Assembly (NCBI GenBank): GCA_949296115.1
Contig: CASFNR010000001.1
Span: 1-64,000 of the forward strand
Direction of reading: 5' to 3'
DNA length: 64,000 bases
From: an uncultured Eubacteriales bacterium
GTDB taxonomy: Bacteria > Bacillota > Clostridia > Oscillospirales > Oscillospiraceae
Under the pieces are notes generated by a model. It was given only the letters and a program-made list of their open reading frames with translations, had not been told where the DNA came from and searched no databases. Each line of letters begins with the position of its first letter. The stretch's first letter is position 1. Shown piece by piece: positions 11,787-48,655 of this stretch. The position numbers and the translations under genes were made by a program.

Positions 11787-12200
11787 TCATAGATCTATTG
11801 CGGGATTCATACTGTATACATTTTTCTGATTCAGTTTTTCCCGCAGCAGCTGAACCGCTTCCCCAAATCTTTGGAAGTGTACAATTTCCCGCTCTCGCAG
11901 GAATTTGATAACATCGTTTACATCCGGGTCGTCAGAAAGACGAAGAATGTTGTCATAGGTTACACGTGCCTTCTGTTCCGCTGCCAAATCCTCTGCCAGA
12001 TCAGCCATGGGGTCACCTTTGACTGCCATCATCCCGGTGCTGAACAGTGCGCCGGAAGCGGCATTTGGATAAACGCCCGCTGTGTGATCCACAAAGTAGG
12101 GTGCAAAGCCGGATTCCATGATCTGAGTATCCTTCAGATTTCGGGTGAGCTGGTGCACAATGGCGCCGACCATCTCCAGATGTCCCAATTCTTCTGTACC
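11787..12200 (-). pseudogene. cotJC: cotJC, 3' part (C-terminal two thirds), split by a 36-kb insertion
   Basis: This frame encodes the C-terminal about 135 residues of the spore-coat protein CotJC, a manganese-catalase (ferritin-like) family member. It contains TEELGHLEM, AAEQKARVTY and REIVHFQRF, which supply metal ligands. There is no N-terminus: upstream of GTEE the frame continues only briefly into unrelated sequence and meets a stop. The missing 64 residues lie at 48646-48838 on the same strand, and joining at GGTACAGAAG restores a 198-aa protein. I see no other defect, so it is better viewed as a split gene than as decay. Confidence 0.93.
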
Positions 12201-12223
12201 TACCTGCAGGTCAATTTGGAACC
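12191..12223. repeat. attL: core CTTCTGTACC plus element arm
   Basis: The core is 12191-12200. To its left is cotJC sequence; to its right is the element. The element arm CAATTTGGAACC (12212-12223) is an imperfect inverted match (9/12) of GGTGCCATTTTG at the other end (48631-48642). When the ends are joined, the axis falls on the CC at the end of the core. Confidence 0.8.
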
Positions 12224-12348
12224 AGAATCAACCCCCTTGCATTGCCAGAAAATATTTTCAGAAATGTATAATATGTTCTTAAGATTATAAATTCTATAAT
12301 AGATTTGCTTGACAAAACTGTCTGCTTGGAATAGACTATACTTGTCGG
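12201..12348. promoter_or_regulatory. Left end of the element with the blaI promoter
   Basis: An AT-rich stretch with TTGACA (12309-12314), a 17-base spacer and TAGACT (12332-12337). GACA-AAAC-TGTC (12311-12322) is a small dyad overlapping the -35 region and could be a BlaI operator. The same TTGACA-N17-TAGNCTAT layout recurs before the decayed blaI at 26646. Confidence 0.6.
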
Positions 12349-12378
12349 TTGATAACAGACAGAATGGAGGCATCCGTT

Positions 12379-12741
12379 ATGGAAGATTATAAACTGGGGC
12401 CGGTGGAATCACGGTTTGCTGATTTCATCTGGGAAGGAGCACCTATGTCCACCAAGGAGTTGGTGGACCTGTGCGCTGAGGAACTGCACTGGAAACGTAC
12501 AACCACCTATTCCATCCTGAAAAAACTATGCGAAAAGGGGTTCTTCAAGATGGAGAATAGCGTGGTTACGGTGCTGGTGTCCAAGGAGGAATACATTGCC
12601 CTGCAAAGTGAAAAATTCGTGGAGGAAATCTTCCGAGGTTCTCTTCCGGCGTTGGTTCTATCCTTTGGATCCCGGAAGAAGCTGAGCAAAGCGGAAATCG
12701 ACCAGCTGCAGGCCATCATCGACGGCATGAAGGAGGGATAA
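12379..12741 (+). CDS. BlaI/MecI/CopY family transcriptional repressor
   Basis: A 120-aa winged-helix protein. LGPVESRFADFIWEGAPMST and KRTTTYSILKKLCEKGFF are the family DNA-binding helices. BlaI-type repressors are cleaved after signalling by a membrane M56 protease, and the following gene encodes such a protease. GGAGG at 12366-12370 lies 8 nt before ATG 12379; the longer reading has no ribosome site. It likely represses its own operon. Confidence 0.9.
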   Translation: MEDYKLGPVESRFADFIWEGAPMSTKELVDLCAEELHWKRTTTYSILKKLCEKGFFKMENSVVTVLVSKEEYIALQSEKFVEEIFRGSLPALVLSFGSRKKLSKAEIDQLQAIIDGMKEG

Positions 12742-12742
12742 C

Positions 12743-13687
12743 GTGACGGACTTATTTTCCCAGGTGCTGAACATGAGCCTCACTGCCAGCGTGATGATTG
12801 TGCTGGTGATCCTGGCCCGGCTGGCGCTGATACGGGCGCCGAAAATCTATTCCTACACCCTGTGGTCTGTGGTTCTGTTCCGACTGCTGTGCCCCGTATC
12901 GCTGCCCTCTCCGGTTTCCCTGCTGGGAGCGATGGATGCTCCGGTAGCGGAGTCCGAGAGCAGGATCACAACTGTGGTATACTTCCAGCCAGAGACGCCC
13001 TTGCAGACGGTGAAGGGCACGGATCAGGAAGCTACTCAGTTCCCAACGGAAGAAAGCGACAGTACGGGAGCTATCTCGGAATTGGAACCCGTTTTCCATC
13101 ATACCGTTTCCTGGATGGAGGTTCTGTCCCCGATCTGGCTTGCCGGGGCAGCCGGCCTGTGCGTTTTGGGAGTGGGAAACTATCTCCGGTTCTGCCGGAA
13201 ACTGCGTTATGCCTGGAAGGTGAAGGGAAATGTATACCTGCTGGATCACATCGATACCCCATTTGCGGCGGGGATTCTCCGACCCAGGATCTATCTGCCC
13301 TCCGACCTGCCACGGGAGCAGGCAGCCTATATCATCGCCCACGAACGCTGTCACATTCGACGGCTGGACCTTCTGACCCGCGGGCTTTCTTTTGCGGCGC
13401 TGTGCCTGCATTGGTTTAATCCGCTGGTCTGGCTGGCCTTTGTCCTGTCCGGCCGGGATATGGAGATGAGCTGTGATGAGGCCGTGATCCGCCGTCTGGG
13501 ACCAAACATCCGCAGGGCCTATTCCCAGTCCCTGCTGAATCTGGCCTCCGGAGGACGACTGTTCCACGGCGCTCCCCTGGCTTTTGGGGAGGGAAATACC
13601 GGCAGCCGGATTCGCAATCTGGCCCGGTGGCGCAAGCCATTGTGTGCCTGGTGCTGTCGCTGGCCATACTGGCAGCCTGTGGATTGA
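12743..13687 (+). CDS. BlaR1-like M56 membrane metalloprotease, frameshifted
   Basis: A membrane zinc protease of the M56 (BlaR1/MecR1) family: N-terminal helices, a cytoplasmic protease domain with HERCH (HExxH) and the downstream SCDEAV, then GEGNTGSRIRNLARWRKP, which in relatives leads into the next membrane helix. Here the frame turns to a Trp/Cys-rich tail and stops. The expected helix (AIVCLVLSLAILAAC) is in the next frame, from about 13630. A small indel therefore separates the protease from its C-terminal sensor domain. It starts one base after the blaI stop. Confidence 0.8.
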   Translation: MTDLFSQVLNMSLTASVMIVLVILARLALIRAPKIYSYTLWSVVLFRLLCPVSLPSPVSLLGAMDAPVAESESRITTVVYFQPETPLQTVKGTDQEATQFPTEESDSTGAISELEPVFHHTVSWMEVLSPIWLAGAAGLCVLGVGNYLRFCRKLRYAWKVKGNVYLLDHIDTPFAAGILRPRIYLPSDLPREQAAYIIAHERCHIRRLDLLTRGLSFAALCLHWFNPLVWLAFVLSGRDMEMSCDEAVIRRLGPNIRRAYSQSLLNLASGGRLFHGAPLAFGEGNTGSRIRNLARWRKPLCAWCCRWPYWQPVD

Positions 13688-18389: not shown

Positions 18390-19109
18390 ATGATTGACTG
18401 TATTTCCGTGGAAAATATGCGGCGGAGTGACGCCTATACCATTTCAAACTATGTGTCAAGCCTGGAGCTGATGTATCGGGCAGCGTATGGTGTTTTTCTG
18501 GCAGGAACCTGGCAGGGGCGCACCGCAATTGTGGTCGGATCTGGCAATAACGGCGGAGACGGCTTTGCCCTGGCCTGGATTTTGAAGGAACACCACCATG
18601 ACTGCACGATATTCACCGTCAGCAATCATCTGTCGCAGGACAGCCGGTACTATGCGGAGAAAGCCGCCTCCGCTGGGGTCTTGATTTATCCCTTTGAAGC
18701 GGAGTGCCTTGCCGGTTACGGAATCGTGGTTGACTGCCTGCTGGGAACCGGCTTCCAGGGACAGCTCCGGGAGAACTACCGTGCTGCGATTGCGGCCATT
18801 AACGCATCCAACGCTTTTGTTGTCAGCGTAGATATCAACAGCGGCATGAACGGAGATACCGGGGAGGCAGATCTGGCGGTATGTTCCGACCTGACCGTCA
18901 CCATTGGTTATGTCAAGCGTGGGTTGATTGCGCCCAATGCCGCACGATACCTGAAAAGTCTGGTATGCGCCGACATCGGCATTGTCCTGGAAACGGAAGA
19001 GTGGAAGATATGCGGGGAACACGAAGAGTTGGCCGAAGGCTGTTTCCTGTGTCCGCAGTGGCTGGATATGCGCCCGATTGAAACAATTCCAATCGGGGAA
19101 AAGGAATAG
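18390..19109 (+). CDS. nnrE: NAD(P)H-hydrate epimerase (YjeF_N domain)
   Basis: A 239-aa protein carrying only the YjeF N-terminal domain. GSGNNGGDGFALAWIL is the conserved glycine-rich loop and VVDCLLGTGFQGQLR and SVDINSGMNGDTG follow. The enzyme interconverts R and S forms of damaged NAD(P)HX; the dehydratase domain (NnrD) normally fused to it is missing here. ATG follows AAGAAGGAGA. A terminator ends the gene. Confidence 0.9.
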   Translation: MIDCISVENMRRSDAYTISNYVSSLELMYRAAYGVFLAGTWQGRTAIVVGSGNNGGDGFALAWILKEHHHDCTIFTVSNHLSQDSRYYAEKAASAGVLIYPFEAECLAGYGIVVDCLLGTGFQGQLRENYRAAIAAINASNAFVVSVDINSGMNGDTGEADLAVCSDLTVTIGYVKRGLIAPNAARYLKSLVCADIGIVLETEEWKICGEHEELAEGCFLCPQWLDMRPIETIPIGEKE

Positions 19110-19169: not shown

Positions 19170-19209
19170 TTTATCCTTTCTGTCATAAAGCATGATGGGA
19201 GGCAAAGGG

Positions 19210-19237
19210 TCATCCATTTCCCGGCCCGGCATATAAT
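19210..19237 (+). promoter_or_regulatory. Candidate promoter of the recombinase operon (SigE-like)
   Basis: CATATAAT (19230-19237) matches the mother-cell SigE -10 consensus at 7 of 8 bases, and TCATCCA (19210-19216) is a partial SigE -35 at 13 bases spacing. The same bases contain TATAAT, but there is no SigA -35 at 16-18 bases. The -35 match is poor, so a SigA extended -10 promoter remains possible. Confidence 0.4.
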
Positions 19238-19260: not shown

Positions 19261-19485
19261 ATGGCAAGGCGGTATGCGTCCCTGGAAAAAATCGAACATA
19301 ATCGACGGATTACCAAAGAACAGGATGCGCTGTTTCTGCATCGTCTCCAAAGCGGCCTGCTGCTGGCCCTCAAAGAGCAGGGACAGCTCAACGAAATGCA
19401 GTACCGCCATGCTCAAGATCGTCTGGACCGGCAGCACCTGGAATGGGTTCAGAAACAGGGACAGAAAGGGGAGGGAACAGAATGA
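19261..19485 (+). CDS. Small SHOCT-like protein coupled to the recombinase
   Basis: A 74-aa, charged, helical protein. Its middle segment LLLALKEQGQLNEMQYRHAQ resembles the short C-terminal (SHOCT) oligomerisation motif. AAAGGAGG lies before the ATG, and its stop overlaps the recombinase start (ATGA), so both are made together. Small proteins beside serine integrases often act as recombination directionality factors (as SprB does for SPbeta), so this is a candidate for that role. It has no membrane segment. Function not established. Confidence 0.7.
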   Translation: MARRYASLEKIEHNRRITKEQDALFLHRLQSGLLLALKEQGQLNEMQYRHAQDRLDRQHLEWVQKQGQKGEGTE

Positions 19486-21002
19486 AAGTAGCGAGCTATT
19501 GCCGGGTATCTACGGACAAGGAGGACCAGGCGAACTCTTTTGAATCTCAGCAGCGATATTTTCAGGAATATATTGCTCAGAATCCTGATTGGGAGCTGTA
19601 TGCCATTTACGCCGATGAAGGGACTTCCGGAACCAGCACCAGGAAGCGTGCGCAGTTTAACCGGATGATTCAGGATGCCCATGCAGGAAAATTCCAGTTG
19701 ATTCTGACCAAGGAGGTTAGCCGGTTTTCTAGGAACATTGTAGACACCCTGAGCTACACCCGGGAACTGAAGCGAATTGGGGTTGCGGTGGAGTTTGTGA
19801 CCGACCATATCAACACCATGGACGGCGACGGAGAACTGCGGCTGTCTATCATGGCGACCATGGCCCAGGATGAAAGCCGGAAAACCTCCAATCGGGTGGT
19901 CTGGGGCCAGACCCGGCAGATGGAAAAGGGGATCGTATTTGGCCGTTCTCTTTTGGGCTACGATGTGAAGGATGGGAAGTTGTCCATCGAACCGGATGGG
20001 GCAGAGATTGTACGTCTGATTTTCCAGAAATACGCAGTAGAGCAGGTGGGGACTGCAGAGATTGCCCGCATTCTCAACCGGGAGGGATACCGTACTTATC
20101 ACGGAGGGAAATGGAAATCCAGTGCAATAATCAAAATTCTGAAAAATGAGAAGTATGTGGGGGATTTGGTGCAGAAAAAGACCTATACCCCCGATTATCT
20201 GACCCATGAGAAGCGACCCAACCGGGGCCAGGTGCCCCAAATCCGCATTGAGAATCATCATGTGCCCATTATCAGCCGGGAAGTCTGGCACCTTGCCCGG
20301 AAACGGCTGGAGCAGAACAACAAGCATGGAGCAGGGGAGAACGGTCATTCCAACCGCTATGTATTCTCCGGCAAAATCAAATGCGCCCTCTGCGGCGCTA
20401 ATTTTGTCGGACGGATGCGAACCTTGCGGGATGGTACCAGGGTTCGCCGCTGGAGCTGCGGTACGGCGGTGCGGGAGGGCACAGACGGCTGTCAGATTGG
20501 CAAGCTGGTTCGGGACGATGACGCCATGCATATGCTGAAGCTCGCTATCCAGAGCCTTCCAATGGATGCCAAGCCCATTATGGACAATGTGACGGCGCTG
20601 GCTCTGGAAGCCATACGTGCCGGCAACAGCGGAACCCGGGATGACCCGGAGCGGCTGCGGTTCGAGCTGGACCGCCTTCAGCGGAAAAAAGAGGCGGTAT
20701 TGGACCACTATATTTCCGGGGATATTTCAAAAGAGGATATGGAGGCCATGAAAAGCCGGTATGAAAATCAGATCAATTCCTATAGGGAGCGGCTGGAAAA
20801 AGCGGAGGCGAAGCAGGAGAATCCCGGTGACTCTCTGGCAATGAAGCGGACCATTCAGGCGGAGGTGGCAGATTTATTGAGCTGCCAGGTGGAAAGTGAG
20901 GTGCTTTGCAAAACCCTCTTAAGCAGTCTCACCGTGTTTCCGGATCGACATCTGGAACTGAGACTGAAGGATTTGCCTATGGTATTTCGGTTTGCTGGCT
21001 GA
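19482..21002 (+). CDS. Large serine recombinase (site-specific integrase/excisionase)
   Basis: A 506-aa recombinase. An N-terminal resolvase/invertase domain begins SYCRVSTDKEDQ with the nucleophile Ser10, followed by LILTKEVSRFSRN and DGELRLSIMATMAQDES. A recombinase domain (about residues 160-290) is followed by a zinc ribbon (CALC ... C, about 305-345) and a coiled coil (about 395-455). This is the architecture of phiC31-, TnpX- and SpoIVCA-type enzymes, which recombine short att sites with a 2-bp crossover. It is the only recombinase inside the cotJC element and so the best candidate for its movement. Confidence 0.94.
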   Translation: MKVASYCRVSTDKEDQANSFESQQRYFQEYIAQNPDWELYAIYADEGTSGTSTRKRAQFNRMIQDAHAGKFQLILTKEVSRFSRNIVDTLSYTRELKRIGVAVEFVTDHINTMDGDGELRLSIMATMAQDESRKTSNRVVWGQTRQMEKGIVFGRSLLGYDVKDGKLSIEPDGAEIVRLIFQKYAVEQVGTAEIARILNREGYRTYHGGKWKSSAIIKILKNEKYVGDLVQKKTYTPDYLTHEKRPNRGQVPQIRIENHHVPIISREVWHLARKRLEQNNKHGAGENGHSNRYVFSGKIKCALCGANFVGRMRTLRDGTRVRRWSCGTAVREGTDGCQIGKLVRDDDAMHMLKLAIQSLPMDAKPIMDNVTALALEAIRAGNSGTRDDPERLRFELDRLQRKKEAVLDHYISGDISKEDMEAMKSRYENQINSYRERLEKAEAKQENPGDSLAMKRTIQAEVADLLSCQVESEVLCKTLLSSLTVFPDRHLELRLKDLPMVFRFAG

Positions 21003-21106: not shown

Positions 21107-22924
21107 TTACTCTGTTACCGGGTACAGGACCGTTCCGTCCATCAGCACCAGATGGTCTACCTCGTCCAGAGGAATCATTGTTCCGTAGTCTTTGGAGTCG
21201 TAGAACCCAAGGCTGCCATTTAACTGGATTTCCGTTCCATCTTTCAGTACCACCGTGGGGAACTTCCCTCCACGGTAATCGGCCAGGTCCAAGCCGCCGT
21301 CTTCCCAGGTGGATGTAAAGGAACCGCCGAATCCCCGGAGCTTCAGGGAAGTAAGGGTTACGTCTTCAAACACATCGTTGCCATTCATGTCCCAGCCTGT
21401 AGAAGCTTTTGTGGTGATGGGTTCACCGATAAACTCGATTTCCCGCCACTCTCCGTCTTCCAGGGTAATGTCGAAATTCCATATCCCATCCATGGACCAG
21501 AGCGTATCGAATTGGCATAACTCTTCATTCCAGGCATCCACACGCAAGTCCTGTAGGTATAGATTGCAGGCTGCACCTTTCGAGAATGGAACACCTTCTT
21601 CGGCGTATTCCTGAATGTCTACAGAAAAGTTAACAGTGTTAATCTTGCCGTCATTGTCCGCTGTGGCACGGTAGCTGGCCCCCGCTCCTGGCACCTGGGA
21701 GGTTGTGAAACGCAAGGAGTTAAAAGAAAGGCTTCCTGTATAAAAATTGTCCTTTGCCAAATATTGTTCCAGATCTACATCTTCCGGAGCTGTAACCCCA
21801 AGGGTAATCGATACTTTCGTTCCATCGGAGATAACCTGTTTTACCTCTACGGTATACCCGCTCTGGGTTTGGGTCAAATCGGTGCTGGGTTTCTGCCCCT
21901 CCAGAATGGCAGGATCACCGGGAATCGGTTTCAGGTCAAAGTTTATCGTATCCAGAATCTGATTCAGCTGTTCATCGGTCATGGATGTTTCAATTACTTC
22001 CTGATAACCGTTTTCATCGGTGCCAACCTGGTGAATGGTTTCTATCCGGAGAGCGACCGTGGCATCTTCCAGATCACAGAATACTCCGCTGGACCATACC
22101 GAGGGAGAGCGGAGAATCAGAACGTCCTGACCGCTGGCGGTGGTGTAGTTTCGTTCCTGCCAGTCGTCTCCCGTCAGGTCAAACAGGTCATTGTTAAAGC
22201 AGTCCTTGGGACTGTAGAGAAAGCTGAGCATGGACTGGTATGGCCAGATATCCGTCCCGTCTGTCATCCGGAAGGTGACATCTGCACGGAAATAGCCCCC
22301 TTCATAATAGCTGGCAGTGTCGAGAGACGCTTTCGCCGGCGCATCCGGCAGCAAAATGCTGCTAATGTCCAGGTATTCCAGCAGAGCCTTGGCGCTTTGC
22401 GCCTTTACTGGAGCGCCAATAAGCTTTAAATCATATTCACTGCAGATTTCTTCAATCTTATCCACCATTTCCTGGGAATAGGGGTTGTAAAATGCATATT
22501 GCTCCGGGAACTCTGGTACATTGCCCCATATTGAATTGATGATGTTATGATCCGGGTCATAGGTCTGTTCAAACTCGTACCACGCCTGAGCCGCCTGATA
22601 GCTGGGAGTACCTTTCAGACCGCTCAGGGTCAGAGTCTGCTGGGAGAGTGTCTGAGATACCAGGGTGTGCTGCTCATTATCCCAGCGATCTTCCGTAACC
22701 TGGGCTTCACCCAGTTTTAAATCCTGCATTTTCAGGACATATACCACCCCGCAGCCCACCAGCAAAAGCATCAGCGCAATCAGGGCAGCAATCAGCAGCG
22801 GTCTGCGGCGCTTTCGGGGTGCTTCGGCTCTGACCGCCCGGCTGGGAAACGGCTGATTTTCCGCTTCGTCAATCAGGTCTTCTCCCACATACTTTAGCCC
22901 AAGGAACAGATCTTTTCCATTCAT
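21107..22924 (-). CDS. Membrane anti-sigma-like sensor protein (pair 1)
   Basis: A 605-aa protein. A short cytoplasmic domain (residues 1-42) precedes one membrane helix (43-65) containing LLLVGC, and about 540 extracytoplasmic residues follow. It overlaps the upstream sigma gene by ATGA, the usual arrangement of a sigma factor with its anti-sigma partner. The first part of the ectodomain (about residues 110-330) resembles the two other long proteins (27557, 39479); the second part (VEVKQVISDGTKVSITLGVTA) looks like the DUF4179 domains of Firmicutes anti-sigma proteins. Signal unknown. Confidence 0.7.
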   Translation of the reverse strand: MNGKDLFLGLKYVGEDLIDEAENQPFPSRAVRAEAPRKRRRPLLIAALIALMLLLVGCGVVYVLKMQDLKLGEAQVTEDRWDNEQHTLVSQTLSQQTLTLSGLKGTPSYQAAQAWYEFEQTYDPDHNIINSIWGNVPEFPEQYAFYNPYSQEMVDKIEEICSEYDLKLIGAPVKAQSAKALLEYLDISSILLPDAPAKASLDTASYYEGGYFRADVTFRMTDGTDIWPYQSMLSFLYSPKDCFNNDLFDLTGDDWQERNYTTASGQDVLILRSPSVWSSGVFCDLEDATVALRIETIHQVGTDENGYQEVIETSMTDEQLNQILDTINFDLKPIPGDPAILEGQKPSTDLTQTQSGYTVEVKQVISDGTKVSITLGVTAPEDVDLEQYLAKDNFYTGSLSFNSLRFTTSQVPGAGASYRATADNDGKINTVNFSVDIQEYAEEGVPFSKGAACNLYLQDLRVDAWNEELCQFDTLWSMDGIWNFDITLEDGEWREIEFIGEPITTKASTGWDMNGNDVFEDVTLTSLKLRGFGGSFTSTWEDGGLDLADYRGGKFPTVVLKDGTEIQLNGSLGFYDSKDYGTMIPLDEVDHLVLMDGTVLYPVTE

Positions 22925-23475: not shown

Positions 23476-23500
23476 TTTGCTTCACCTCGCTTGTGTAATG

Positions 23501-23521: not shown

Positions 23522-23644
23522 GTTTTCGGATGAGAAACCGCACATCATCAAAATAAATTTCCTGGGAAAAGCCGGACCCGAGCCTATTCTCAGATCCGGC
23601 GGCCATGATATGCAGCTTTGGCAACACTGTCAGAACGAAATGGG

Positions 23645-36241: not shown

Positions 36242-38494
36242 ATGAAACCAATCAAACAAATGTTGTGCTGGATGCTGGCAGCTCTGTGCCTGGCGGGCTG
36301 CTTCTCCGGCTGTCAAAAAGAGGAAGCCATCGTTACCGAGGCTGTCCCCACCCAGAGCAGCGGCGCCATGGGCCGCTATGTGGAGCAGTCCATCCCCTTG
36401 CCGGAGTGCCAGTATGCCAAGGATCTGGTTATGCTAGAGGACGGCAGACTCCGGGTGTCCCTGATTCTGGAGGACAATTCTGCCATCGTCTGCACCACCG
36501 GGGCGGACCGTTCTGCCTGGGAGGACACCTGGGGAGTCCCGGAAGAAATTCTGGCTACAGGTTCTGTGTCCAAGCTGACACTCTCTCCGGATGGGAAAAT
36601 GTTCTGCCATACCTGGAAGGATGCAGATGAACAGGGAAATTATGGCTACCATTTCTGGGTGATCGAATCAGATAGAAGTTATCGGGAGCTTCCCATTTCT
36701 TACCCGGATGTAGATTATACCATGGGCTACCTGATTCCCGACTGTGACTTTACCAACAGCGGAAAGCTGATGATGGAGCTTCAGCAGGATGAGGTCTGCC
36801 AGCTCGATCTGGAAACCGGTGCTGTGGGCGAGAACCTCAATGAAGTGGAACCCAGGGTTCTCAAAATGGGCTGCGGCGGCGAGAATACATACATTATGGG
36901 CTGGGATACCGTCAGCGCCAACATCGACGGCGAAACCGCCGCTCTGGACAACGCCATGGGCCAGCAGATTGTGGATGCCCTCCGGGACAACGAGGGCAAC
37001 ACCCCCAAAATCGCATTCTGGGAAAATTCGGAGGGCTATCTGTTCTTCATCACCCAGATGGGCCTATATAGCTTTGTGCCCGGGGGCAGCGTGGTGGAGG
37101 AACTGATCGACGGCTCCCGGACTACCCTGGGCGACACCAGATTTCTGCCTGTGGCCATGACCGGAGCGGAGGATGACACCTTTTATGTGCTGGGCAGCCG
37201 GGGTGACACGGGAGCCATGCTGCTGCACTACACCTATGATACGGAAATCCCCACCGTGTCGGATACCCAGCTGACCATCTACAGCCTGTATGAGAGCGAA
37301 GACCTGCCTCAGATGATCTCCCAGTACCAGGTGGCCCATCCGGAGGTGATGGTGGAGCTGGAAATCGGCATGACCGGGGAGGACGGCATCACCGTCAGCG
37401 ATGCCATCCGCACCCTGAACACGGAAATTCTGGCGGGCAAAGGCCCGGACCTGATCTGCCTGGACGGATTTAACCTGAATACTTACCAGGAAAAGGGCTT
37501 GCTGGCAGATGTCAGCGAAATTCTCAGCCAGTCGGAACCCACGCTCACCCAGGTGACCCGGTGCTTTGAACAGGACGGCAAAATCTACGCCGTTCCCACC
37601 GGCTTCATTCTGCCTGCCATGTACGGACCCAGCCACATTGTCTCCCAGATTCACGACTGGGATTCCCTGGTGGCTGCCGTCGGGCAGGCCAAGGCGGAGC
37701 GGCCGGATTCTTTTGGCGTTCTGGCAGCCTTTCAGCCGGTAACCACTGCGGATGAGTTCTATGACAGTTATTCCTCTGCCTGGATTAACCCGGATGGAAC
37801 GGTGAATGAGGAAAAACTGACGGAATTCTACGCTAATATGCAGAGAGTCTACGACCTGGACGCAGAACTCCAGGAGGTGTGGGCGGACCGTATTTATGAG
37901 GAGCCTTCGTTTTACCCTGGCGAATACACGGGATTTCTTGGCTCTTTGTCCATGGGGAATTATTGTATCGGTTTCGGTACTTTGAATGGAATGCGGGTAT
38001 GGGCGGATTCCCTTGCAGCTGATCAATATCTGGATGACTACCAGACGGCTTTGTTGGAGCTGGGAGACAGCGGCGTCTTTGTGCCCAAGGGAATCATGGG
38101 CATCCTGACCACCAGCGAACATCCCCAGGCGGCTGGGTCCTTCCTGCAGTTCATGCTCAGCCAGGAGGTTCAGTCCAAGGATCTGAGCTACTGCTTCCCG
38201 GTGAACCAGGCGGTTTTCGACCAGGAAACCACCGAGGAGCGAATTGTTGATAGCTACATGAGCTTTACCGATGCCGATGGCAACAAAATTGGCGTCCAGG
38301 CCCAGTACCCGGATGCCCAGGACCGGGAAAATCTGAGAACCTGGGTGGATAACCTGACCACCCCGGCCTCCACGGACTTCATCATCCGCAGCACCGTGCT
38401 GGATCAGATGACCGCCTGCCTGCTCAAGGAAATCACCCCGGAGCAAGCAGCCCAGAATGCCATGAAGACCATCAATCTCTACCTTGCGGAGTAA
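36242..38494 (+). CDS. Large extracellular solute-binding lipoprotein
   Basis: A 750-aa lipoprotein with signal peptide and lipobox LAGC (Cys near residue 19). The first half (about 40-340) is beta-rich and WD/propeller-like; the second half (about 345-745) is a type 1 solute-binding domain (VMVELEIGMTGEDG ... GPDLICLDGFNL ... PTGFILPAMYG). Such fused proteins are common in Oscillospiraceae sugar-type ABC systems. GGAGG lies before ATG 36242, chosen over an upstream start at 36203. It is likely the receptor for the permease pair 29783-31494. Confidence 0.85.
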   Translation: MKPIKQMLCWMLAALCLAGCFSGCQKEEAIVTEAVPTQSSGAMGRYVEQSIPLPECQYAKDLVMLEDGRLRVSLILEDNSAIVCTTGADRSAWEDTWGVPEEILATGSVSKLTLSPDGKMFCHTWKDADEQGNYGYHFWVIESDRSYRELPISYPDVDYTMGYLIPDCDFTNSGKLMMELQQDEVCQLDLETGAVGENLNEVEPRVLKMGCGGENTYIMGWDTVSANIDGETAALDNAMGQQIVDALRDNEGNTPKIAFWENSEGYLFFITQMGLYSFVPGGSVVEELIDGSRTTLGDTRFLPVAMTGAEDDTFYVLGSRGDTGAMLLHYTYDTEIPTVSDTQLTIYSLYESEDLPQMISQYQVAHPEVMVELEIGMTGEDGITVSDAIRTLNTEILAGKGPDLICLDGFNLNTYQEKGLLADVSEILSQSEPTLTQVTRCFEQDGKIYAVPTGFILPAMYGPSHIVSQIHDWDSLVAAVGQAKAERPDSFGVLAAFQPVTTADEFYDSYSSAWINPDGTVNEEKLTEFYANMQRVYDLDAELQEVWADRIYEEPSFYPGEYTGFLGSLSMGNYCIGFGTLNGMRVWADSLAADQYLDDYQTALLELGDSGVFVPKGIMGILTTSEHPQAAGSFLQFMLSQEVQSKDLSYCFPVNQAVFDQETTEERIVDSYMSFTDADGNKIGVQAQYPDAQDRENLRTWVDNLTTPASTDFIIRSTVLDQMTACLLKEITPEQAAQNAMKTINLYLAE

Positions 38495-38500
38495 CCACTC

Positions 38501-39277
38501 ATGGAAGAGAATGCGCAATTCCCGGTGCCATCTGCGGAGGAAGAGCCTACCCTGGCCCAGCGGCATGCCCGAAGGGCAAAGAGCAGAAAGAAACACTTCG
38601 GGGTTACCGGCTGGGTGCTGGCCATTCTGGCGGTCTGGTTTTTGCTGGTCAATCCTCTGAGCATTTCCTGGATGGATGTGCTGCCGTTTCTGGGGAAGAC
38701 AGCAGATGTCAGTGGGGACTGGAAACTGATTCTGGTAAACTACGAATACCGGCTGCCGGAGGATTATCCGGTGGGACTGACCGAACTATCCAACGGCGAG
38801 CAGGTTGACAGCCGGATGTACCCGGCCCTTCAGCAGATGTTTGACGCCATGCGGGCAGATGGCGTCTATCCCGTCGTGGCTTCCGGTTACCGGACAGCAG
38901 AAGAGCAGCAGGAACTGCTGGACGAAAGAATTCAGGAATACCGGGATGCGGGATACTCCCGGAAATCGGCCAAGGAAGCTGCTTTGCTCCGGGTGGCCAA
39001 GCCTGGGACCAGCGAGCACCAGCTGGGACTGGCGGTGGACATCAACCAGGAGGGCACTCGCTCCACCGCTTCCCAGGTCTATACCTGGTTGGAGGAAAAC
39101 GCCTGGGAATACGGCTTTATTCAGCGGTACCCGGAGGGCAAATCCGAAATCACCGGCATCACCAACGAACCATGGCATTACCGCTATGTGGGAAATCCCG
39201 CCGCCGAAGAAATCACCCGATTTCATAAAGCAAGAGCGGGTCTGTTTCCTTTGAGACAGGCCCGCTTCCTTGCTTGA
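38501..39277 (+). CDS. D-alanyl-D-alanine carboxypeptidase, M15B (VanY-like)
   Basis: A 258-aa protein with one N-terminal membrane helix (about residues 35-53) and an extracellular M15B peptidase domain: VVASGYRTAEEQ, the zinc/active-site block GTSEHQLGLAVDIN and NEPWHYRYVG are all present. It trims the terminal D-Ala of peptidoglycan stem peptides. Beside a VanRS-like system this suggests envelope remodelling. It follows the solute-binding gene by 6 nt. The 3' end of the reading frame lies in a terminator hairpin. Confidence 0.92.
   Translation: MEENAQFPVPSAEEEPTLAQRHARRAKSRKKHFGVTGWVLAILAVWFLLVNPLSISWMDVLPFLGKTADVSGDWKLILVNYEYRLPEDYPVGLTELSNGEQVDSRMYPALQQMFDAMRADGVYPVVASGYRTAEEQQELLDERIQEYRDAGYSRKSAKEAALLRVAKPGTSEHQLGLAVDINQEGTRSTASQVYTWLEENAWEYGFIQRYPEGKSEITGITNEPWHYRYVGNPAAEEITRFHKARAGLFPLRQARFLA
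39235..39268 (+). terminator. Terminator overlapping the carboxypeptidase gene end
   Basis: GCGGGTCTGT / ACAGGCCCGC forms a stem inside the last codons, with a weak T-rich tail. Another strong hairpin at 39405-39440 follows. Confidence 0.55.
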
Positions 39278-39404
39278 TGTCCGATCAACAGGGGAATGAT
39301 AGAGATATGGATTGCAGGGACGCCCGGACTTAGGATAATCTTAGGAATTCGCCAATAAGACTTTAAGATTCAAATGGGCTTTGTTCTGCTATACCTGAAC
39401 ATTG

Positions 39405-39445
39405 TTGGGAGGATTGCCGCTTTGCTGGCAATCCTCCCAATTCTT
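39405..39445. terminator. Hairpin terminator between convergent operons
   Basis: TTGGGAGGATTGCC / GGCAATCCTCCCAA is a perfect 14-bp stem, 34 bases from the end of the anti-sigma gene on the minus strand. Confidence 0.75.
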
Positions 39446-39478
39446 GCATTCCTTTCGGTGTATTTTCAAATGTTTGAA

Positions 39479-41539
39479 TCAGTTCAGAAGGTCGGAAATC
39501 GGCAGCATTCCCTGGTCGATGCGGGGATACTTTGCCAGAATTGCGTTGGCTTCTTCCTCAGTAATGGGAACCTCATCCCACCAGTCTCCATACCAGGAGG
39601 CGTTGGATTTGTTGTAAACTACGAAGTCCAGGACTTCCGTTTCCAGTCCATCGCACCGCAGGAATTCATGCCCATCCTTTTCTACCCCAAAACCCCCAGC
39701 GTGGCGTGTATCCACATGCTCCAATACACCATCCTCACAGAGATAGAAGTCGGAGGCAAATCCTGTCACGATACCATAACGATAGGTCAGAGCCAAGCAG
39801 TAGTAGTCCGTGTTGCCCAGGAGAGAATCATTTTCCCTCTTCAGGAGCAAATCGTCCACACCGTCCCCGTTAATGTCCAGAATCCGGTAGTGGCTGTAGT
39901 GCATATTTTCCCGCTCATTCAAGTACGTTTTGTAAATGTCCAGCAGCTCTGCATCGGAAACCCGCACATCCTTTTCGTTCAAATAGTCTGAGAGCGTCTG
40001 ATCTTCGGACAGAGGATAGTTCATCACGCTCTTCCAGTCCAGGGAAATTCTGGGATACTGGGCCATAAAGGACAGTGCTTCCTCCGCAGTCACTTCTTCG
40101 GCATCCAGGCTGTTAAATTCCGGCATAAAGCTCCACTTACCACCTATCAGGCTCAGCCCGCCAATCCATTCTCCCATGGATTCGTAATCCAAATCCATCC
40201 AGGCTGTATCACTGTCCGCTTTCAGATAATAATGTTGTGCACGATCATCCAGTTCCGGGTCAGTATGATAACGTTCCAGCACATGCCCTTCACACAAAAA
40301 GGTATTATTCCCCCAGAACCACTGAACTTCGCCATCTTGAATCGTGTGCCACTCATCAATGGCTCCATCACTATCCTCATCCAGCAGCAGTTCCTCAACT
40401 CCATCGCCGGTTAAATCGAAAAACGTATACTGCGCCCTATTATTCGGGAGGACGTATCGGCTTATTAATACCTCACTGAAATTCGTGTAAGTTTCCGGCT
40501 CATAAGCTGTTTCCGCATCATGGGCAGCATCGGATTCCGCCAGCTTTTCCATCACAGCCTCCCGGTCCAGAATCTGGGGCTGTATGGAATAGTCAAACAC
40601 ATCCGCCACCATTTCCAACTGCTCTTTTGTCATGATTTCCTCTGCTGTGGGGTAGGCACTGCCGGAAAAATTTCCGTCAACAAGAAGAACCATAACGGCC
40701 TCGGAAAGGTCCGCAATAATATAGCAATTACCTTTGTGATCGAGCGCAAGTAAAAGTACTGTTCCATCACGGGTTGTGTAGTTCCACTGCTGAAAGAGGC
40801 TCAAATCCATCCCCCACAAAGTATTTCCAGGAAAATAGTCTTTTCGGGCATAGAGGACTTTGGCCCACAGTTTCGTGTCAATCTCCTTTAATTTCACACT
40901 TATTTCCAGCCGCAAATTATGTGGTGGATAAAGCAGACCGGAAAGACCAATCATTTCTGCGCCACTATCCGGCAGTATCAGAGAGCCGACTCCGGATTCC
41001 TCCAGGAAAATTTCACTTTGCCATCCCTGGAAAGTAATCCATTCTCCCAATAACTTCAGGTCGTATTTTTGAGCAATCTCGTCCACCATTTCCACCATTT
41101 CCTGGGTATAACAGGAGTAGGTGTATTCATACTGATTGGGGATTTCTGGATGGTCTGGATTGTTGTCCATAAGCGCTCCATCTGGGTCATAGGTTTCCAG
41201 GAAATCGGACCATTCTTTCGTTGCCAGTTGAATGGGATCTCCACTATGACCAAACGGCGTCAGCACATCCCATTCCTTTTCAACCGGCTCGATAGCTTTC
41301 CCGGAATCGTCAAAGGTCTTGGTATAAGTTTCTTTACCCACGGACATATCCTGCAGCCGAAGGGTATACACCACAGCACAGCCAACCAGCAAGAGCGTAA
41401 TGGCAACAATGGCTGCAATCAGAAGGGGCCTGCGCAATGCCCGGCGACTTTTTTCCGCACAGATTAGGCCCCTCTCTGCTTCGTCATAATATTGGGGGTT
41501 GATATTTCCCAGTTCAATCAGTAAATCTTTCCCGGTCAT
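39479..41539 (-). CDS. Membrane anti-sigma-like sensor with DxDGDG repeats (pair 3)
   Basis: A 686-aa paralogue of the 27557 protein along its whole length: N-terminus LLIELGNINPQYYDEAE, helix with LLLVGC (Cys54), NQYEYTYSCYTQEMVEMVDE block, acidic loop DINGDGVDDLLLK, and the ending EEEANAILAKYPRIDQ. A further loop, DLTGDGVEELLLDEDSDG, lies mid-protein. It overlaps the sigma gene at 41536 by ATGA. Duplicated sensor units inside one element are notable. Confidence 0.7.
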   Translation of the reverse strand: MTGKDLLIELGNINPQYYDEAERGLICAEKSRRALRRPLLIAAIVAITLLLVGCAVVYTLRLQDMSVGKETYTKTFDDSGKAIEPVEKEWDVLTPFGHSGDPIQLATKEWSDFLETYDPDGALMDNNPDHPEIPNQYEYTYSCYTQEMVEMVDEIAQKYDLKLLGEWITFQGWQSEIFLEESGVGSLILPDSGAEMIGLSGLLYPPHNLRLEISVKLKEIDTKLWAKVLYARKDYFPGNTLWGMDLSLFQQWNYTTRDGTVLLLALDHKGNCYIIADLSEAVMVLLVDGNFSGSAYPTAEEIMTKEQLEMVADVFDYSIQPQILDREAVMEKLAESDAAHDAETAYEPETYTNFSEVLISRYVLPNNRAQYTFFDLTGDGVEELLLDEDSDGAIDEWHTIQDGEVQWFWGNNTFLCEGHVLERYHTDPELDDRAQHYYLKADSDTAWMDLDYESMGEWIGGLSLIGGKWSFMPEFNSLDAEEVTAEEALSFMAQYPRISLDWKSVMNYPLSEDQTLSDYLNEKDVRVSDAELLDIYKTYLNERENMHYSHYRILDINGDGVDDLLLKRENDSLLGNTDYYCLALTYRYGIVTGFASDFYLCEDGVLEHVDTRHAGGFGVEKDGHEFLRCDGLETEVLDFVVYNKSNASWYGDWWDEVPITEEEANAILAKYPRIDQGMLPISDLLN

Positions 41540-42090
41540 ACAGAAATTCCCTCCTTCGCAAGATAGGTGTACAGTTTTGCCCTTGTCCGATGCAGCTGCG
41601 TCTTGACCTTGCTCTGGCTGATGCCATATCGGGATGCGATTTCAGCAACCGTCTCCACATACAGATATCGGCGGAGGAAGATTAAGCGGCTTTCTTGCGG
41701 CAAAGTATCCAGGAACGCCTCCAACACCCGTTTGAGTTCCTTTCCCTCCATCTGGAAATCCTGCCTACTGTCGGGAATACAGTTTTCCATCTCCTGTGTC
41801 AGCGCCACGACCTCGGCTTTACGCTTGGCAGCCAATTTCCAGTCCAGACAGTTAAAGGACAAATTGCGGCATATGGACGCCAGGAAAGCATAAAAATACC
41901 TGGGACGCTTGGGAGGAATGGACTTCCAGGCTGCCATATAGGTATCGCTTACCTGTTCTTCTGCATCCTCCCGATTGTTAAGAATGTTATGGGAAAGCAT
42001 AAACAGTTTCCTGCCGTAAGCATTGTCTGTTTCTTTTACTGCCTGCTCATTTCTCTCCCAGTATAATGCGATGATTTTCGCATCTTCCAC
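41536..42090 (-). CDS. ECF-type RNA polymerase sigma factor (pair 3)
   Basis: A 184-aa sigma factor, close paralogue of the pair 1 sigma factor (22921): AEEQVSDTYMAAWKSIPPKRP in region 2, KRKAEVVALTQEMENCIPD in the linker, RRYLYVETVAEIASRYGISQ in region 4. It starts at GTG behind AAAGGAGTGA, with the shared AGGGTGAGGAGCACATT leader at about 42111-42127. Confidence 0.9.
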   Translation of the reverse strand: MEDAKIIALYWERNEQAVKETDNAYGRKLFMLSHNILNNREDAEEQVSDTYMAAWKSIPPKRPRYFYAFLASICRNLSFNCLDWKLAAKRKAEVVALTQEMENCIPDSRQDFQMEGKELKRVLEAFLDTLPQESRLIFLRRYLYVETVAEIASRYGISQSKVKTQLHRTRAKLYTYLAKEGISV

Positions 42091-42110
42091 TTGGGCTCAC
42101 TCCTTTCTCA

Positions 42111-42127
42111 ATGTGCTCCTCACCCTG
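42111..42127 (-). promoter_or_regulatory. Conserved leader motif before sigma gene 3
   Basis: AGGGTGAGGAGCACATT on the minus strand; counterpart of the motif at 23501-23521. Confidence 0.4.
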
Positions 42128-42330
42128 TTAGTAAGAATCCGAGCGGGAAAGGTTACATCTATTTTAGCAATTATTTTGCAAAATGAAAACGTACAATTCA
42201 GGGAGATGTTTTTAAAGCAGAAAACCCGGCAGAAAACACCGATGCGTCCAGTTTATGCAATGGAACGACAAAATAACTGCACCCCATTTCTTTGGAACAA
42301 GCAAATACTCGTACTTCCCAGAAAAATGAG

Positions 42331-42357
42331 GTGCAGCTGGTCCAGCGTAGCTGCCAT
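42331..42357 (-). terminator. Weak terminator after the DUF4179-like gene
   Basis: GCAGCT / AGCTGC stem with a 10-nt loop followed on the minus strand by CACCTCATTTTTC. Confidence 0.45.
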
Positions 42358-42367
42358 TTATATTCCG

Positions 42368-43363
42368 TTATTCCACTTCCAGCGGGATTGTCACATCGCA
42401 TATAATCAATGCTTCCATGGAATCAAGAGGGATGGGCGTCGGGAACATGGCGCCGTAGTTTGCATCTGCGGTATCTTCGCTTTCCTTGGCGCTGGCATTG
42501 AAATTCCAATTTTCCAAAGGAATCTGACTTCCATCTTTCAGCACCAGGTAGACGGATTCACAGAAAGCTTGTACGAGGATGGATTCATTGGCCGAATAAT
42601 CTTTCCATAGATTGGGAGAAGTCAGATCCAAGTGAATCCCAATAGGGGAGACGTACCCTTTTTTCAGAATATAGGAATTTCCTTCACGATCTGTCACCTC
42701 CATGGGGCGGAAGTGAATTTTCTGGGTGGTGTCCCGATAACGCAGAGTGAAAGAAAGACTCCATTCTCCTTCCAGAACCATTCTTTTCTCCTGCTCAGTC
42801 CCCAAATCCTGAACCAGGTCGCCAAATTCAACAGTTACTTTTCGATTGAAAAACAATGGGTAAAGCCAAGATGACCAACCGCCCCCTGTGTATTCTTCGA
42901 TGATATGAATGGTTTTTCCATCCTCACTTCTCTGATAGCTGAGAGAACCGCCGCCGTTGCCGAAAGGATGATACATTTGCCAATCAGAAAACCGCAGACC
43001 CTCAGGGACGACTCCACCATCCTGCCGGGTCAATGCGTATACAATCGCAACATGGTAGCGATCACCGATGACGGCTTCTGCCTTCAACTGATATGCGCCT
43101 ATTTCCACGGAAGCGTTGACGGGAACACCAATGCTGTCTACCAATTCCGTCTGCGCATAGCCGAAGAGGGGAGCCAGCAGATTGCTGACATATCCATTGT
43201 CATATTCCGCATGGACAGGCAGCGCCAGAAGCGCCAAAACCAGACATGCCGCAAGAAAACGGATCCAACGCCGCTGGGACCGCTTTCCTGCAGGTTGCTC
43301 TGCATCCAGCACCCAATCATCCCGAACATCTCCAATGGCATCATAGAGCAATTCTTCGTTCAT
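42368..43363 (-). CDS. Short membrane anti-sigma-like protein (pair 4, DUF4179-like)
   Basis: A 331-aa protein: cytoplasmic N-terminus (LLYDAIGDVRDDWVLDAE), one membrane helix (about residues 34-52) and an ectodomain resembling the DUF4179/DUF5643-type domains of Firmicutes anti-sigma proteins. It lacks the DxDGDG loops of pairs 2 and 3. It overlaps the sigma gene by ATGA. Confidence 0.7.
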   Translation of the reverse strand: MNEELLYDAIGDVRDDWVLDAEQPAGKRSQRRWIRFLAACLVLALLALPVHAEYDNGYVSNLLAPLFGYAQTELVDSIGVPVNASVEIGAYQLKAEAVIGDRYHVAIVYALTRQDGGVVPEGLRFSDWQMYHPFGNGGGSLSYQRSEDGKTIHIIEEYTGGGWSSWLYPLFFNRKVTVEFGDLVQDLGTEQEKRMVLEGEWSLSFTLRYRDTTQKIHFRPMEVTDREGNSYILKKGYVSPIGIHLDLTSPNLWKDYSANESILVQAFCESVYLVLKDGSQIPLENWNFNASAKESEDTADANYGAMFPTPIPLDSMEALIICDVTIPLEVE

Positions 43364-43920
43364 AGTCCGTATCCCTCCTTTTCCAGGTGTCTGCGCAGCT
43401 TCTTTCGTGTGCGGTGGAGCATGGATTCTACCTTACTTTTGGAAAAATGAAACTGGTCGCAAATCTCCCGGATGGACATGGCATGCCAATACCGGCGCAG
43501 AAACACCCGGCGTTCCTCCTGGGGCAGGGCAGACAGGAACTGGTTGAGGATACCGACCAATTCCTGATACTCCAGCTGTGTTTCTGTACTGTGTTCACCT
43601 GGAATACATTCCGCCAGCTCTTCCAGAGAGAGGGCGACTTGACCGCCTCCACGTTTCTGTGCATCCCGGCTGCGGAGCCGTTTCAGGCTGATTCTTCGCG
43701 TGAGCTTTCCAAGGTATGCAGATAGCATTGCCGGTTTGTTGGGAGGAATGCTGTCCCAGGCTGCCTGATAGGTGTCGTTAACACATTCTTCAGCATCCAG
43801 TGCATCCTCCAGAATTCGCATGGCAATAGAGCGGCAGTAGTTTCCGTAGTTCTTTTCACATAGGACAATGGCGGATTCCTCCCGGTTCCAGAATCGTGTT
43901 ACAATTTCTGAATCCTCCAC
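43360..43920 (-). CDS. ECF-type RNA polymerase sigma factor (pair 4)
   Basis: A 186-aa sigma factor most like that of pair 2: DAEECVNDTYQAAWDSIPPNKP in region 2, RSRDAQKRGGGQVALSLEELAEC in the linker and RRYWHAMSIREICDQFHFSK in region 4. Start GTG behind GAGGAGGTGA. Confidence 0.9.
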   Translation of the reverse strand: MEDSEIVTRFWNREESAIVLCEKNYGNYCRSIAMRILEDALDAEECVNDTYQAAWDSIPPNKPAMLSAYLGKLTRRISLKRLRSRDAQKRGGGQVALSLEELAECIPGEHSTETQLEYQELVGILNQFLSALPQEERRVFLRRYWHAMSIREICDQFHFSKSKVESMLHRTRKKLRRHLEKEGYGL

Positions 43921-44104
43921 ATACTCACCTCCTCTTTTATTTCCCTTTATTATTCTACTACCTTAAAATCAACGCTGCTTGCAAAAAGATTAGAAAAATC
44001 ATGATATTACTTCCAGAGCATATAGCATTTGGAAATAAGGGTCAATTTCTTGTCACGCTTTTCTGGTTGGTTTTCTCACATTGGGTGTTGCGTGAAAAAA
44101 CTGG

Positions 44105-44133
44105 TTGTCAATTAATATAACAGATGTTATAAT
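44105..44133 (+). promoter_or_regulatory. Promoter of the TetR-oxidoreductase operon
   Basis: TTGTCA (44105-44110), 17-base spacer, TATAAT (44128-44133). Confidence 0.8.
44116..44131. promoter_or_regulatory. Palindromic operator TATAACA-GA-TGTTATA
   Basis: A perfect 7-bp inverted repeat with 2-bp centre, placed in the spacer and over the -10 of the promoter. This is where a self-repressing TetR protein would block transcription; the next gene encodes one. Confidence 0.75.
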
Positions 44134-44178
44134 AGAGGCAACCCATATTATTCGAATAGAATGGATAGGCGGAAGTCT

Positions 44179-47500: not shown

Positions 47501-47529
47501 ACGCACGCTCCTGTGATTGGAAATTGCAG

Positions 47530-47576
47530 CAGAACATCCTGGAATCATGCTCGATTCCAGGATGTTCTGGATTCTT
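47530..47576. terminator. Terminator between the oxidoreductase operon and the ZIP gene
   Basis: A perfect 17-bp stem (CAGAACATCCTGGAATC / GATTCCAGGATGTTCTG), suiting both convergent genes. Confidence 0.9.
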
Positions 47577-47607
47577 GCCCGCTTGTGAAACATGCCTGCC
47601 TTCCGAA

Positions 47608-48411
47608 CTACCCCAGCATCACGTCCAGCAGCATCATAACAGCGAATCCCAGAACGATTCCCATGGTGGCGAAATACGGCTGGTTCTGCTGATTTCTCTG
47701 GCATTCCGGAATCAACTCGTGGACGGCGACCAGGATCATCGCTCCGGCCGCAAAGGACAATGCGTATGGAAGAATCGTTTCTACATAAACCACCAGCAAT
47801 GCCCCTATCACGCCGGCAATCGGTTCTACAAGGCCGGAAGCTTGACCGATCAGAAAGCTTCTCCTTCTTGAAAATCCCTCTCTCCGGAGAGGAACCGAAA
47901 CTGCCGCACCTTCAGGGAAGTTCTGCAAACCGATTCCCACTGCCACGGAAATGGCTCCCATCAGGCTTTCCGCAGTACAGTCGCTACCTTGCAAGGCGCC
48001 AAATGCCACGCCCACTGCCAGGCCCTCCGGGATGTTGTGCAGGGTGATGGAAAGAATCAGCATGACAATGCGGTGCAGGCGCTCATTTGGCTTTCCCTGC
48101 GTGCTGTCAGCTTCTCTCCTCGCAAAGGATACAATTTTATCAGAGGCCCACATAAACAGGGCGCCAAATAAAAAGCCTGCTGTTGCCACCAGATATGCAG
48201 GCAAGCCGGATGCTGCCTCCGCACGTTCGATTGCTGGCTGAAGCAAAGACCAGAAGCTGGCCGCGATCATGACGCCGGAAGCAAATCCAAGCATGATGTT
48301 CAGCCCTTTGGGATCGGGGGATGTAAAAAAGATGACCGTGGCCGCCCCCAGTGCTGTTATGAACCAGGTTCCCAGTGTGGCCACAAGTGCCATTGTCAGA
48401 TAATTACCCAT
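47608..48411 (-). CDS. ZIP family metal transporter
   Basis: A 267-aa transporter with eight helices. HNIPEGLAVGVAFG and GIGLQNFPEGAAVSVPLR are the two metal-binding helix motifs, and a polar loop follows helix III. ZIP proteins move Zn2+ or other divalent metals into the cytoplasm. AGGAGGTGC precedes ATG 48411; a start 32 codons upstream has no site. It is the last gene before the right junction of the element. Confidence 0.9.
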   Translation of the reverse strand: MGNYLTMALVATLGTWFITALGAATVIFFTSPDPKGLNIMLGFASGVMIAASFWSLLQPAIERAEAASGLPAYLVATAGFLFGALFMWASDKIVSFARREADSTQGKPNERLHRIVMLILSITLHNIPEGLAVGVAFGALQGSDCTAESLMGAISVAVGIGLQNFPEGAAVSVPLRREGFSRRRSFLIGQASGLVEPIAGVIGALLVVYVETILPYALSFAAGAMILVAVHELIPECQRNQQNQPYFATMGIVLGFAVMMLLDVMLG

Positions 48412-48645
48412 GTTGCACCTCCTACACCCATTATATTTCCAAGCTCCATTTTGTGACTGTAAAAAAGAGAATGATGCCGGAAATCGTATGCGGATGGAAT
48501 TGTGCATTTGCGGGCATTTGAAGATCCCCGCCGCTGGTATTCCGAGAAAGGCACTGTCGGAACGGGACTATATAACTGCCGCCAGGGAAGGGAAGTGACT
48601 TCGGATTTCATCATCTATTTCCGGAAAAATGGTGCCATTTTGCCC
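48412..48645. other. Right end of the element, no gene recognised
   Basis: 234 bases from the ZIP start to the core at 48646. I see no protein gene with a ribosome site. The last 15 bases carry the arm GGTGCCATTTTG (48631-48642). Confidence 0.6.
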
Positions 48646-48655
48646 CTTCTGTACC
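48631..48655. repeat. attR: element arm plus core CTTCTGTACC
   Basis: The core lies at 48646-48655, with cotJC sequence immediately to its right and the element to its left. GGTGCCATTTTG (48631-48642) mirrors CAATTTGGAACC at 12212-12223. Confidence 0.8.

Follow-up and report, generated by a model that had tools for sequence, protein, structure and literature searches.

An Island-Interrupted cotJC Gene in an Oscillospiraceae Genome and Its Probable Skin-like Excision in the Mother Cell

Introduction

Elements that interrupt sporulation genes and are removed during development are already known as a kind, represented by skin, vfbin, vrin, SPβ in spsM, gin and yin, and the genes of spore formers for which developmental DNA excision is known amount to a handful. 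In the skin element of C. difficile, according to the passages available from PMC5025042, the large serine recombinase (LSR) is required for both directions of recombination and is expressed from a sigmaA promoter, and the 72-aa protein CD1234 is under the control of sigmaE and SpoIIID. Here we describe a 64,000-nucleotide stretch (the window, analysed at its full length) of contig CASFNR010000001.1 from an uncultured bacterium of the Oscillospiraceae (assembly GCA_949296115.1), in which the spore-coat gene cotJC is split by a 36,455-bp island. No description of an interrupted cotJC was found in the open-licence PMC literature searched, and no interruption is described in the cotJC passages available from PMC11222575, PMC3416734, PMC4028888 and PMC4527741. 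The split and the excisable architecture of the locus are established at the level of sequence, and skin-like excision in the mother cell is probably their best explanation.

The Split cotJC Gene and Its In-Frame Join

A preliminary description of the window had reported two cotJC halves that share the repeat GGTACAGAAG and join exactly in frame. Both halves were found again at the same positions, and joining the flanks by script gave a single frame of 597 nt, encoding 198 aa plus a stop, with zero internal stops. The window contains exactly two copies of the 10-mer CTTCTGTACC, at 12191-12200 and at 48646-48655, where shuffles lead one to expect 0.06. The locus displays the short repeat at both ends that marks sporulation gene-intervening elements, and precise removal of the island would restore the frame, as in those elements. 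Going by the ligand motifs of Mn-catalases, the cut would separate the first ligand Glu (E35) from the E65xxH68 pair.

The assignment of the interrupted gene to the sporulation programme draws on Pfam, on the neighbouring CotJA-CotJB gene and on the spoIVA gene of the host. The CotJA-CotJB fusion just upstream identifies the split gene as cotJC by context too, and spoIVA, present elsewhere in the genome, points to a host that probably forms spores. In B. subtilis, cotJC belongs to the sigmaE regulon, as stated in the portion of PMC3416734 consulted. A second intact copy in the same genome, which the preliminary description had named, together with decay of the split copy across strains, as a ground for abandoning its proposal, was also sought. 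The two cotJC pieces are the only Pfam Mn_catalase matches, and no further Mn-catalase gene was found in this metagenome-assembled genome (MAG; 2.42 Mb, 85 contigs), which is 89.6% complete, so that the missing sequence could still hold one.

At the island ends, arms inverted relative to each other enclose a short core, the layout expected for LSR attachment sites. The arm beside the N-half reads GG-TACAGAAGGGGCAAAATGGCACC in the window and GGGTCAATTTGACACC in several relatives, also given as GG-TACAGARGGGTCAATTTGACACC, and the arms diverge in some relatives. A comparison across numerous element ends suggests that crossover takes place at the dinucleotide GG, in which case the remaining letters of the 10-bp repeat in the window would be extra identity. 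The features of the window are collected in Table 1.

Table 1. Positions of the features in the window.
Feature	Position	Strand	Remark
cotJC N-terminal half, codons 1-64	48646..48838	minus	ends at repeat GGTACAGAAG
cotJC C-terminal half, from codon 62	11787..12200	minus	begins at repeat GGTACAGAAG
Island end beside C-half	12191..12223	minus	arm GGTTCCAAATTGACC...GTA, then GG core; relatives often GGGTGYCATTTTGACCC..TGTA-GG
Island end beside N-half	48631..48655	minus	GG core followed by GGGCAAAATGGCACC, an arm in inverted orientation to that beside the C-half
LSR, family LSR64	19443..21002	plus	likely start 19482; family tied to cotJC codon ~62-64
74-aa ORF, candidate recombination directionality factor	19261..19485	plus	overlaps LSR start
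Promoter-like GGTCA-N17-CATATAAT, sigmaE/sigmaK type	19208..19237	plus	before the 74-aa ORF
Promoter-like TGAAC-N17-CATAGGATGA, cotJ operon	49332..49363	minus	in-genome yardstick
Fused CotJA-CotJB gene	48842..49282	minus	directly upstream of cotJC
YjeF_N-domain gene	18390..19109	plus	in the block common to islands L097, L098 and L099
Shared cargo: TetR regulator, FAD oxidoreductase, Fer2/NAD oxidoreductase, ZIP transporter	44156..48507
Extra cargo, 23 kb: ECF sigma factors, P-type ATPase, ABC permeases, two-component system, VanY-domain gene	21107..44155

Two Recombinase Lineages Tied to cotJC

The island carries an LSR in which PF00239, PF07508 and PF13408 (Resolvase, Recombinase and zinc ribbon) all score over the cut-off. 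In the search for relatives of this enzyme, the LSR64 family, each species was represented by a single genome and the query was built from five aligned LSRs of this type; the best 80 loci (L numbers) were fetched with up to 10 kb on either side of the LSR. A cotJC piece lies within the fetched stretch in 74 of these best 80; its junction falls at codons 58-72 by tblastn in 71 of the 74, and in the other three the alignment overruns a junction that is visible at codon 64. Two of the six loci lacking a piece, L097 and L100, come from G140 and G143, two genomes that have their cotJC pieces at a greater distance or on different contigs. By their titles, the loci include MAGs of Oscillospiraceae and Lachnospiraceae and strain records of Pseudoflavonifractor, Flavonifractor, Anaeromassilibacillus and Roseburia. 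Within the genus of the host, LSR64 is present in 13 of 136 genomes (E <= 1e-100), a single time in each among no more than 11 scored candidates, and cotJC is cut at codon ~64 in 13/13. With these two ties to the codon, across loci and across the genus, the LSR of the window is the candidate recombinase for the ends of its own island.

A second lineage, LSR136, is 27% identical to LSR64, and cotJC is cut at codons 128-140 in 29 of the 30 loci fetched for it from the order. LSRs also adjoin cotJC junctions at codons ~50 and ~66 and, in G133, at ~178. Among half-pairs, 27 of 31 share a repeat of >=4 bp in the phase that homology dictates, and these pairs, when joined, encode 198-205 aa, omitting L060 and L127, each of which has a second insertion. 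Upstream of the LSR in L107-L112, L139 and L140, a CCGCACATTCGTC-like sequence recurs ~55 bp before the start.

The arrangement extends to records of cultured strains. In Pusillibacter faecalis MM59, a finished isolate record, the cotJC halves lie ~30 kb apart on the same strand, and the N-half is accompanied by an LSR64-type gene, a small ORF and CATA before this ORF. The record of this locus (L270; NZ_AP023421.1, 241210-271733) is 504 kb long, bears a plasmid label and is typed as conjugative. An annotated major capsid protein lies in the vicinity, and cotJB adjoins the N-half. Both halves also share one contig in the isolate-titled records Pseudoflavonifractor An44 (L163) and An386a (L133). 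In plasmid and phage collections the LSR relatives show <60% identity, the plasmid matches coming from the first 5000 records, and the best of them itself sits in a split cotJC.

Small Open Reading Frames and Their Promoters

The 74-aa open reading frame (ORF) that overlaps the LSR start has a homolog upstream of 69 of 77 LSR64 genes, and LSR136 is preceded by a small ORF of ~50 aa; no alignment was obtained between the two. The small ORFs of both lineages matched no Pfam family over the cut-off, no PHROG and no solved structure. In both main lineages they sit behind a CATANNNT promoter resembling that of the cotJ operon, and it is the small ORF, not the LSR itself, that the conserved promoter precedes.

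Duplicate contigs and near-identical upstream regions were removed before promoters were counted, as they were before the comparisons of LSR and flank identity below. CATA lies at -42..-15 of the LSR64 small ORF in 40 of 47 cases, against 3/47 and 6/47 in shifted windows and 45/377 at the starts of the remaining ORFs in these loci (Fisher p 3e-25, kinship ignored). When positions are anchored on a conserved Phe codon, the count is 48/60 against 12/60, with 42 sites in one 15-nt bin; it leaves out 8/77 LSR64 genes that have no small-ORF homolog and 9/69 that are too near an edge. For LSR136, CATA falls in the same interval in 23/35 cases, some of them wrongly picked small ORFs, compared with 6/35 and 1/35 in shifted windows, and several LSR136 genes have their own TATAAT-like box after the small ORF.

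Promoter types were judged against the general consensus sequences of the sigma factors. Three aligned sets, taken only from sites with CATA in reach (68/97 for cotJ, 55 for LSR64 and 23/27 for LSR136), have a -35 block at equal spacing: tGAAC-N17-CATAG.ATGA for the cotJ operon, gg.aA-N17-CATA.A.T for the LSR64 small ORF and GgaATA-N17-CATAtA.T.TA for the LSR136 small ORF. An automated test with a strict motif found it in 34/79 LSR64, 20/38 LSR136, 2/16 other LSRs in cotJC loci and 2/57 LSRs outside cotJC loci, as opposed to 5, 3, 1 and 0 in shifted windows; classes were set by LSR identity, with thresholds of 44% and 52% chosen after seeing the data. A scan upstream of the LSRs with an AC -35 was weakly positive (12/86; shuffles mean 4.4, largest 10). 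The CATA promoters, together with the precedent of CD1234, suggest that the small ORFs encode recombination directionality factors made in the mother cell.

Distribution and Multiplicity of cotJC Interruptions

The single case of the preliminary description proved to be a real split and a member of a large, multi-site class spread over many genomes. In the genus, 106 of 136 genomes (G numbers) have an Mn_catalase match. Among the match positions listed, two cotJC pieces lie on one contig in at least 14, ~2.2 to 46 kb apart; at least 21 further genomes have >=300 bp of other DNA past a junction (for G009, beside its middle piece and on one side of it); at least seven have a break at a known site and a contig end no more than 200 bp away, at least five are broken elsewhere by a contig end, and at least 55, including G076, contain a full-length CotJC match. 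One genus genome with a piece covering codons 1-63 (G034) lies outside the fetched set. The contig ends near junctions (G007:C16, G023:C137, G076:C5, G088:C158, G107:C153, G126:C29 and G152:C258) would fit the co-existence of joined and split forms, or of more than one island, in the sampled DNA. Across the order, 325 of 394 genomes have an Mn_catalase match.

Some genes carry more than one interruption. In L127, an Oscillibacter MAG by title, cotJC lies in three pieces on one contig (3144-11773), and its two islands, at codons ~64 and ~136, hold one LSR of each lineage along with a hybrid sensor kinase and a Fic-domain protein. The gene is cut at 64 and ~178 in G133, and at ~66 and ~136, on two contigs, in G009. 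In a Roseburia record (L154) and a Butyrivibrio record (L174) it is apparently cut again near codon ~31 besides ~64, and in records of Subdoligranulum variabile (OY725844.1 and OY725852.1) pieces meet near codon ~136. Several cuts fall at what are presumably metal-ligand codons (E65/H68 and E136); cuts at highly conserved ligand codons would also suit an element of broad host range.

Island Cargo

The islands examined carry mostly host-type genes. In the window, none of the 30 element ORFs scanned with Pfam matched a phage structural family over the cut-off, and a prophage was rejected, there being no structural or packaging genes among them by Pfam. The shared right-hand cargo is 86-88% identical, in parts, in L097, L098 and L099. 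In L097 the LSR directly precedes the TetR block, in the place where the window has its 23-kb extra cargo. A solute-binding protein from this extra cargo is present in 11/136 genus genomes, that of the window included. The same region contains three ECF sigma genes, each directly adjoining a larger gene (605, 686 and 331 aa).

Small islands also occur, such as one of 2.2 kb with a PTS EIIC gene (G108) and one of 2.7 kb with a FAD-dependent gene (G127). Such very small cotJC islands (~2.2 and ~2.7 kb; L057:3753-6550 and L058:2158-5539) contain one transport or metabolic gene and the LSR, and little else. Other islands carry MatE, AbiEii, Fic, an IMS-family DNA polymerase, an ABC-F-like ATPase or a sensor kinase.

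Mobility and Constraint

Judged by sequence identity, cotJC islands move horizontally between species. In a Lachnospiraceae group the LSR DNA is 95-99.6% identical, compared with 66-82% for the alignable, often short, flanks, and the pair L107/L109 shows the opposite (LSR 97.9, flank 99.1). The right-hand cargo of the window is 92% identical to that of G143 (L088), whose flank is 76% identical. Near-identical cotJC LSRs with diverged flanks, a sign of recent spread, are seen in L158, L161, L162, L167 and other Lachnospiraceae loci.

At the codons checked, the cotJC parts of 159 pieces, a set that counts four contigs twice, are free of stops; three reported stops lie where the alignment overruns the junction. 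Relative to CotJB, the split N-halves appear nearly as constrained as intact genes. The preliminary description had read intact halves as a sign of selection or of recent insertion; the pieces found are free of stops, but badly decayed halves would escape homology searches and the islands spread, so that in this genome the intactness of the halves is no proof of selection.

A Model of Excision in the Mother Cell

In the model that we propose, the 36,455-bp island would be excised by its own LSR in the sporulating mother cell, rebuilding an intact cotJC there. SigmaE or sigmaK would read the promoter of the small ORF as it would that of the cotJ operon, and the 74-aa protein would turn the LSR from an integrating into an excising enzyme, in the manner of CD1234 in the skin element of C. 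difficile. With excision limited to the mother cell, the island and its cargo would pass unchanged through the spore. Since the gene is needed only in a cell that dies, cotJC may be a low-cost landing site for islands. The earlier proposal of mother-cell excision gains from these analyses a recombinase, att-like ends, an in-frame join, a candidate directionality gene with its promoter, and spoIVA in the host.

Slightly favoured, too, is a broader proposition, in which gut clostridia would have cotJC in common as a landing pad. Two or more LSR lineages, each with its own directionality gene, would have converged on cotJC and on mother-cell control; their islands would persist in the germ line and be lost from the mother cell, which dies, genes in three pieces would need two excisions, and programmed DNA elimination would be a common lifestyle of islands.

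Weighing the Alternatives

Several results count against excision in the mother cell. Neither an excision product nor a circle nor expression was seen, and a pattern search of viral contigs for the circle junction returned six stretches, none with arms. The automated motif test fails in 45/79 LSR64 genes and favours the cotJC classes, because control LSRs offer fewer testable starts (0.75 per gene, as opposed to ~1.5), and the scan upstream of the LSRs with an ATA -35 was not above shuffles (6/86; mean 3.0, largest 7). The sequences are related, so P values overstate their independence. Decayed halves escape homology searches and may be missed by the count of stops, 30/136 genus genomes have no Mn_catalase match at all, and G076 has a full-length match besides its split piece. 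The split N-halves diverge slightly faster relative to CotJB (0.36, against 0.29 for intact genes; permutation P 0.067; 64 split and 12 intact loci). In 161 pairs, LSR identity lies >5 points above flank identity in 33 and >5 below in 12; as the islands are mobile, insertion may in many cases be recent, and the intactness of the halves does not by itself distinguish selection from youth. This spread would also be expected if ordinary integrative islands simply knocked out cotJC at conserved codons, with no developmental excision and a dispensable CotJC. We regard this as unlikely, even though the motif precedes just 1/5 of the LSRs directly at codons ~50, ~66 or ~178 (L069 only), and though, in the available part of PMC11222575, C. 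difficile cotCB and cotD mutants have lower catalase activity and no significant coat defect. Against a simple knock-out stand the two LSR lineages whose dissimilar small ORFs sit behind promoters of the mother-cell type, rare at other LSRs, and the absence of stops from the cotJC parts of the 159 pieces.

Excision might also be independent of sporulation, with a stress-responsive switch of the active-lysogeny type restoring cotJC in part of the population. The seven genus genomes with contig ends <200 bp from a junction would be expected if joined and split forms co-exist, and according to PMC10747680 a culture of C. botulinum contains yin in the integrated as well as the excised form. Repeats or strain mixtures also produce contig ends, however, and the promoter of the small ORF fits the sigmaE/sigmaK type, which makes such a switch improbable. 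That the split is an assembly error of the MAG is scarcely credible: the genome is indeed a draft in 85 contigs, but the 14 genus genomes with both pieces on one contig, that of the window among them, led us to reject this explanation, and the isolate-titled records of An44, An386a and Pusillibacter faecalis MM59 are split as well, and the island ends in the window are att-like arms.

The class widens what is known of developmental excision, as cotJC is interrupted in at least 35 of 136 genus genomes, by several LSR lineages and at no fewer than five codons, and the cargo of the islands examined is of an ordinary kind, made up of metabolic, transport and regulatory genes. If mother-cell-specific excision holds, sporulation would give islands a safe site at little cost to the lineage. 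The class also supplies many natural sets of an LSR, an att site and a candidate directionality factor, together with isolates in which the switch can be tested.

Comparison with Known Systems

More distant recombinases resemble that of the window to a limited degree. It matches the YokA chains 9dxh and 9dxd weakly (E 3e-11 and 4e-11), and the NCBIfam model NF041201 of XisF, the recombinase of the fdxN element, over residues 18-364 (E 3e-31, below the curated cut-off); the CcrB and CcrC models outscore it, also below their cut-offs. XisF has a developmental role in heterocysts, and the fdxN element differs from the window in host and gene.

Among spore formers, the comparison relies on the parts of each source that were available. 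The skin element of C. difficile, like the island of the window, splits a mother-cell gene and has an LSR together with a small directionality factor, for which the island has a candidate; unlike it, skin targets sigK, is prophage-like and has an LSR with a sigmaA promoter, whereas the small ORF and LSR of the window overlap (PMC5025042). SPβ in spsM corresponds to the present proposal in that excision by a phage recombinase rebuilds a spore-envelope gene, but it is a functional phage, and the island of the window has no phage structural gene by Pfam (PMC4191935). The yin element of C. botulinum likewise lies in a clostridial sporulation gene and has a recombinase and a predicted directionality factor, although it is prophage-like and occupies another gene, yabG (PMC10747680). 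The gin element of B. cereus differs in its gene, gerE, in having three recombinases and in being described at one site in one strain; it is 28.6 kb long and resembles the island of the window in its lack of phage-related genes and in its serine recombinase, which in gin is accompanied by an extra factor, GirX, and its gene is rebuilt in sporulation, as is proposed here for cotJC (PMC5595907).

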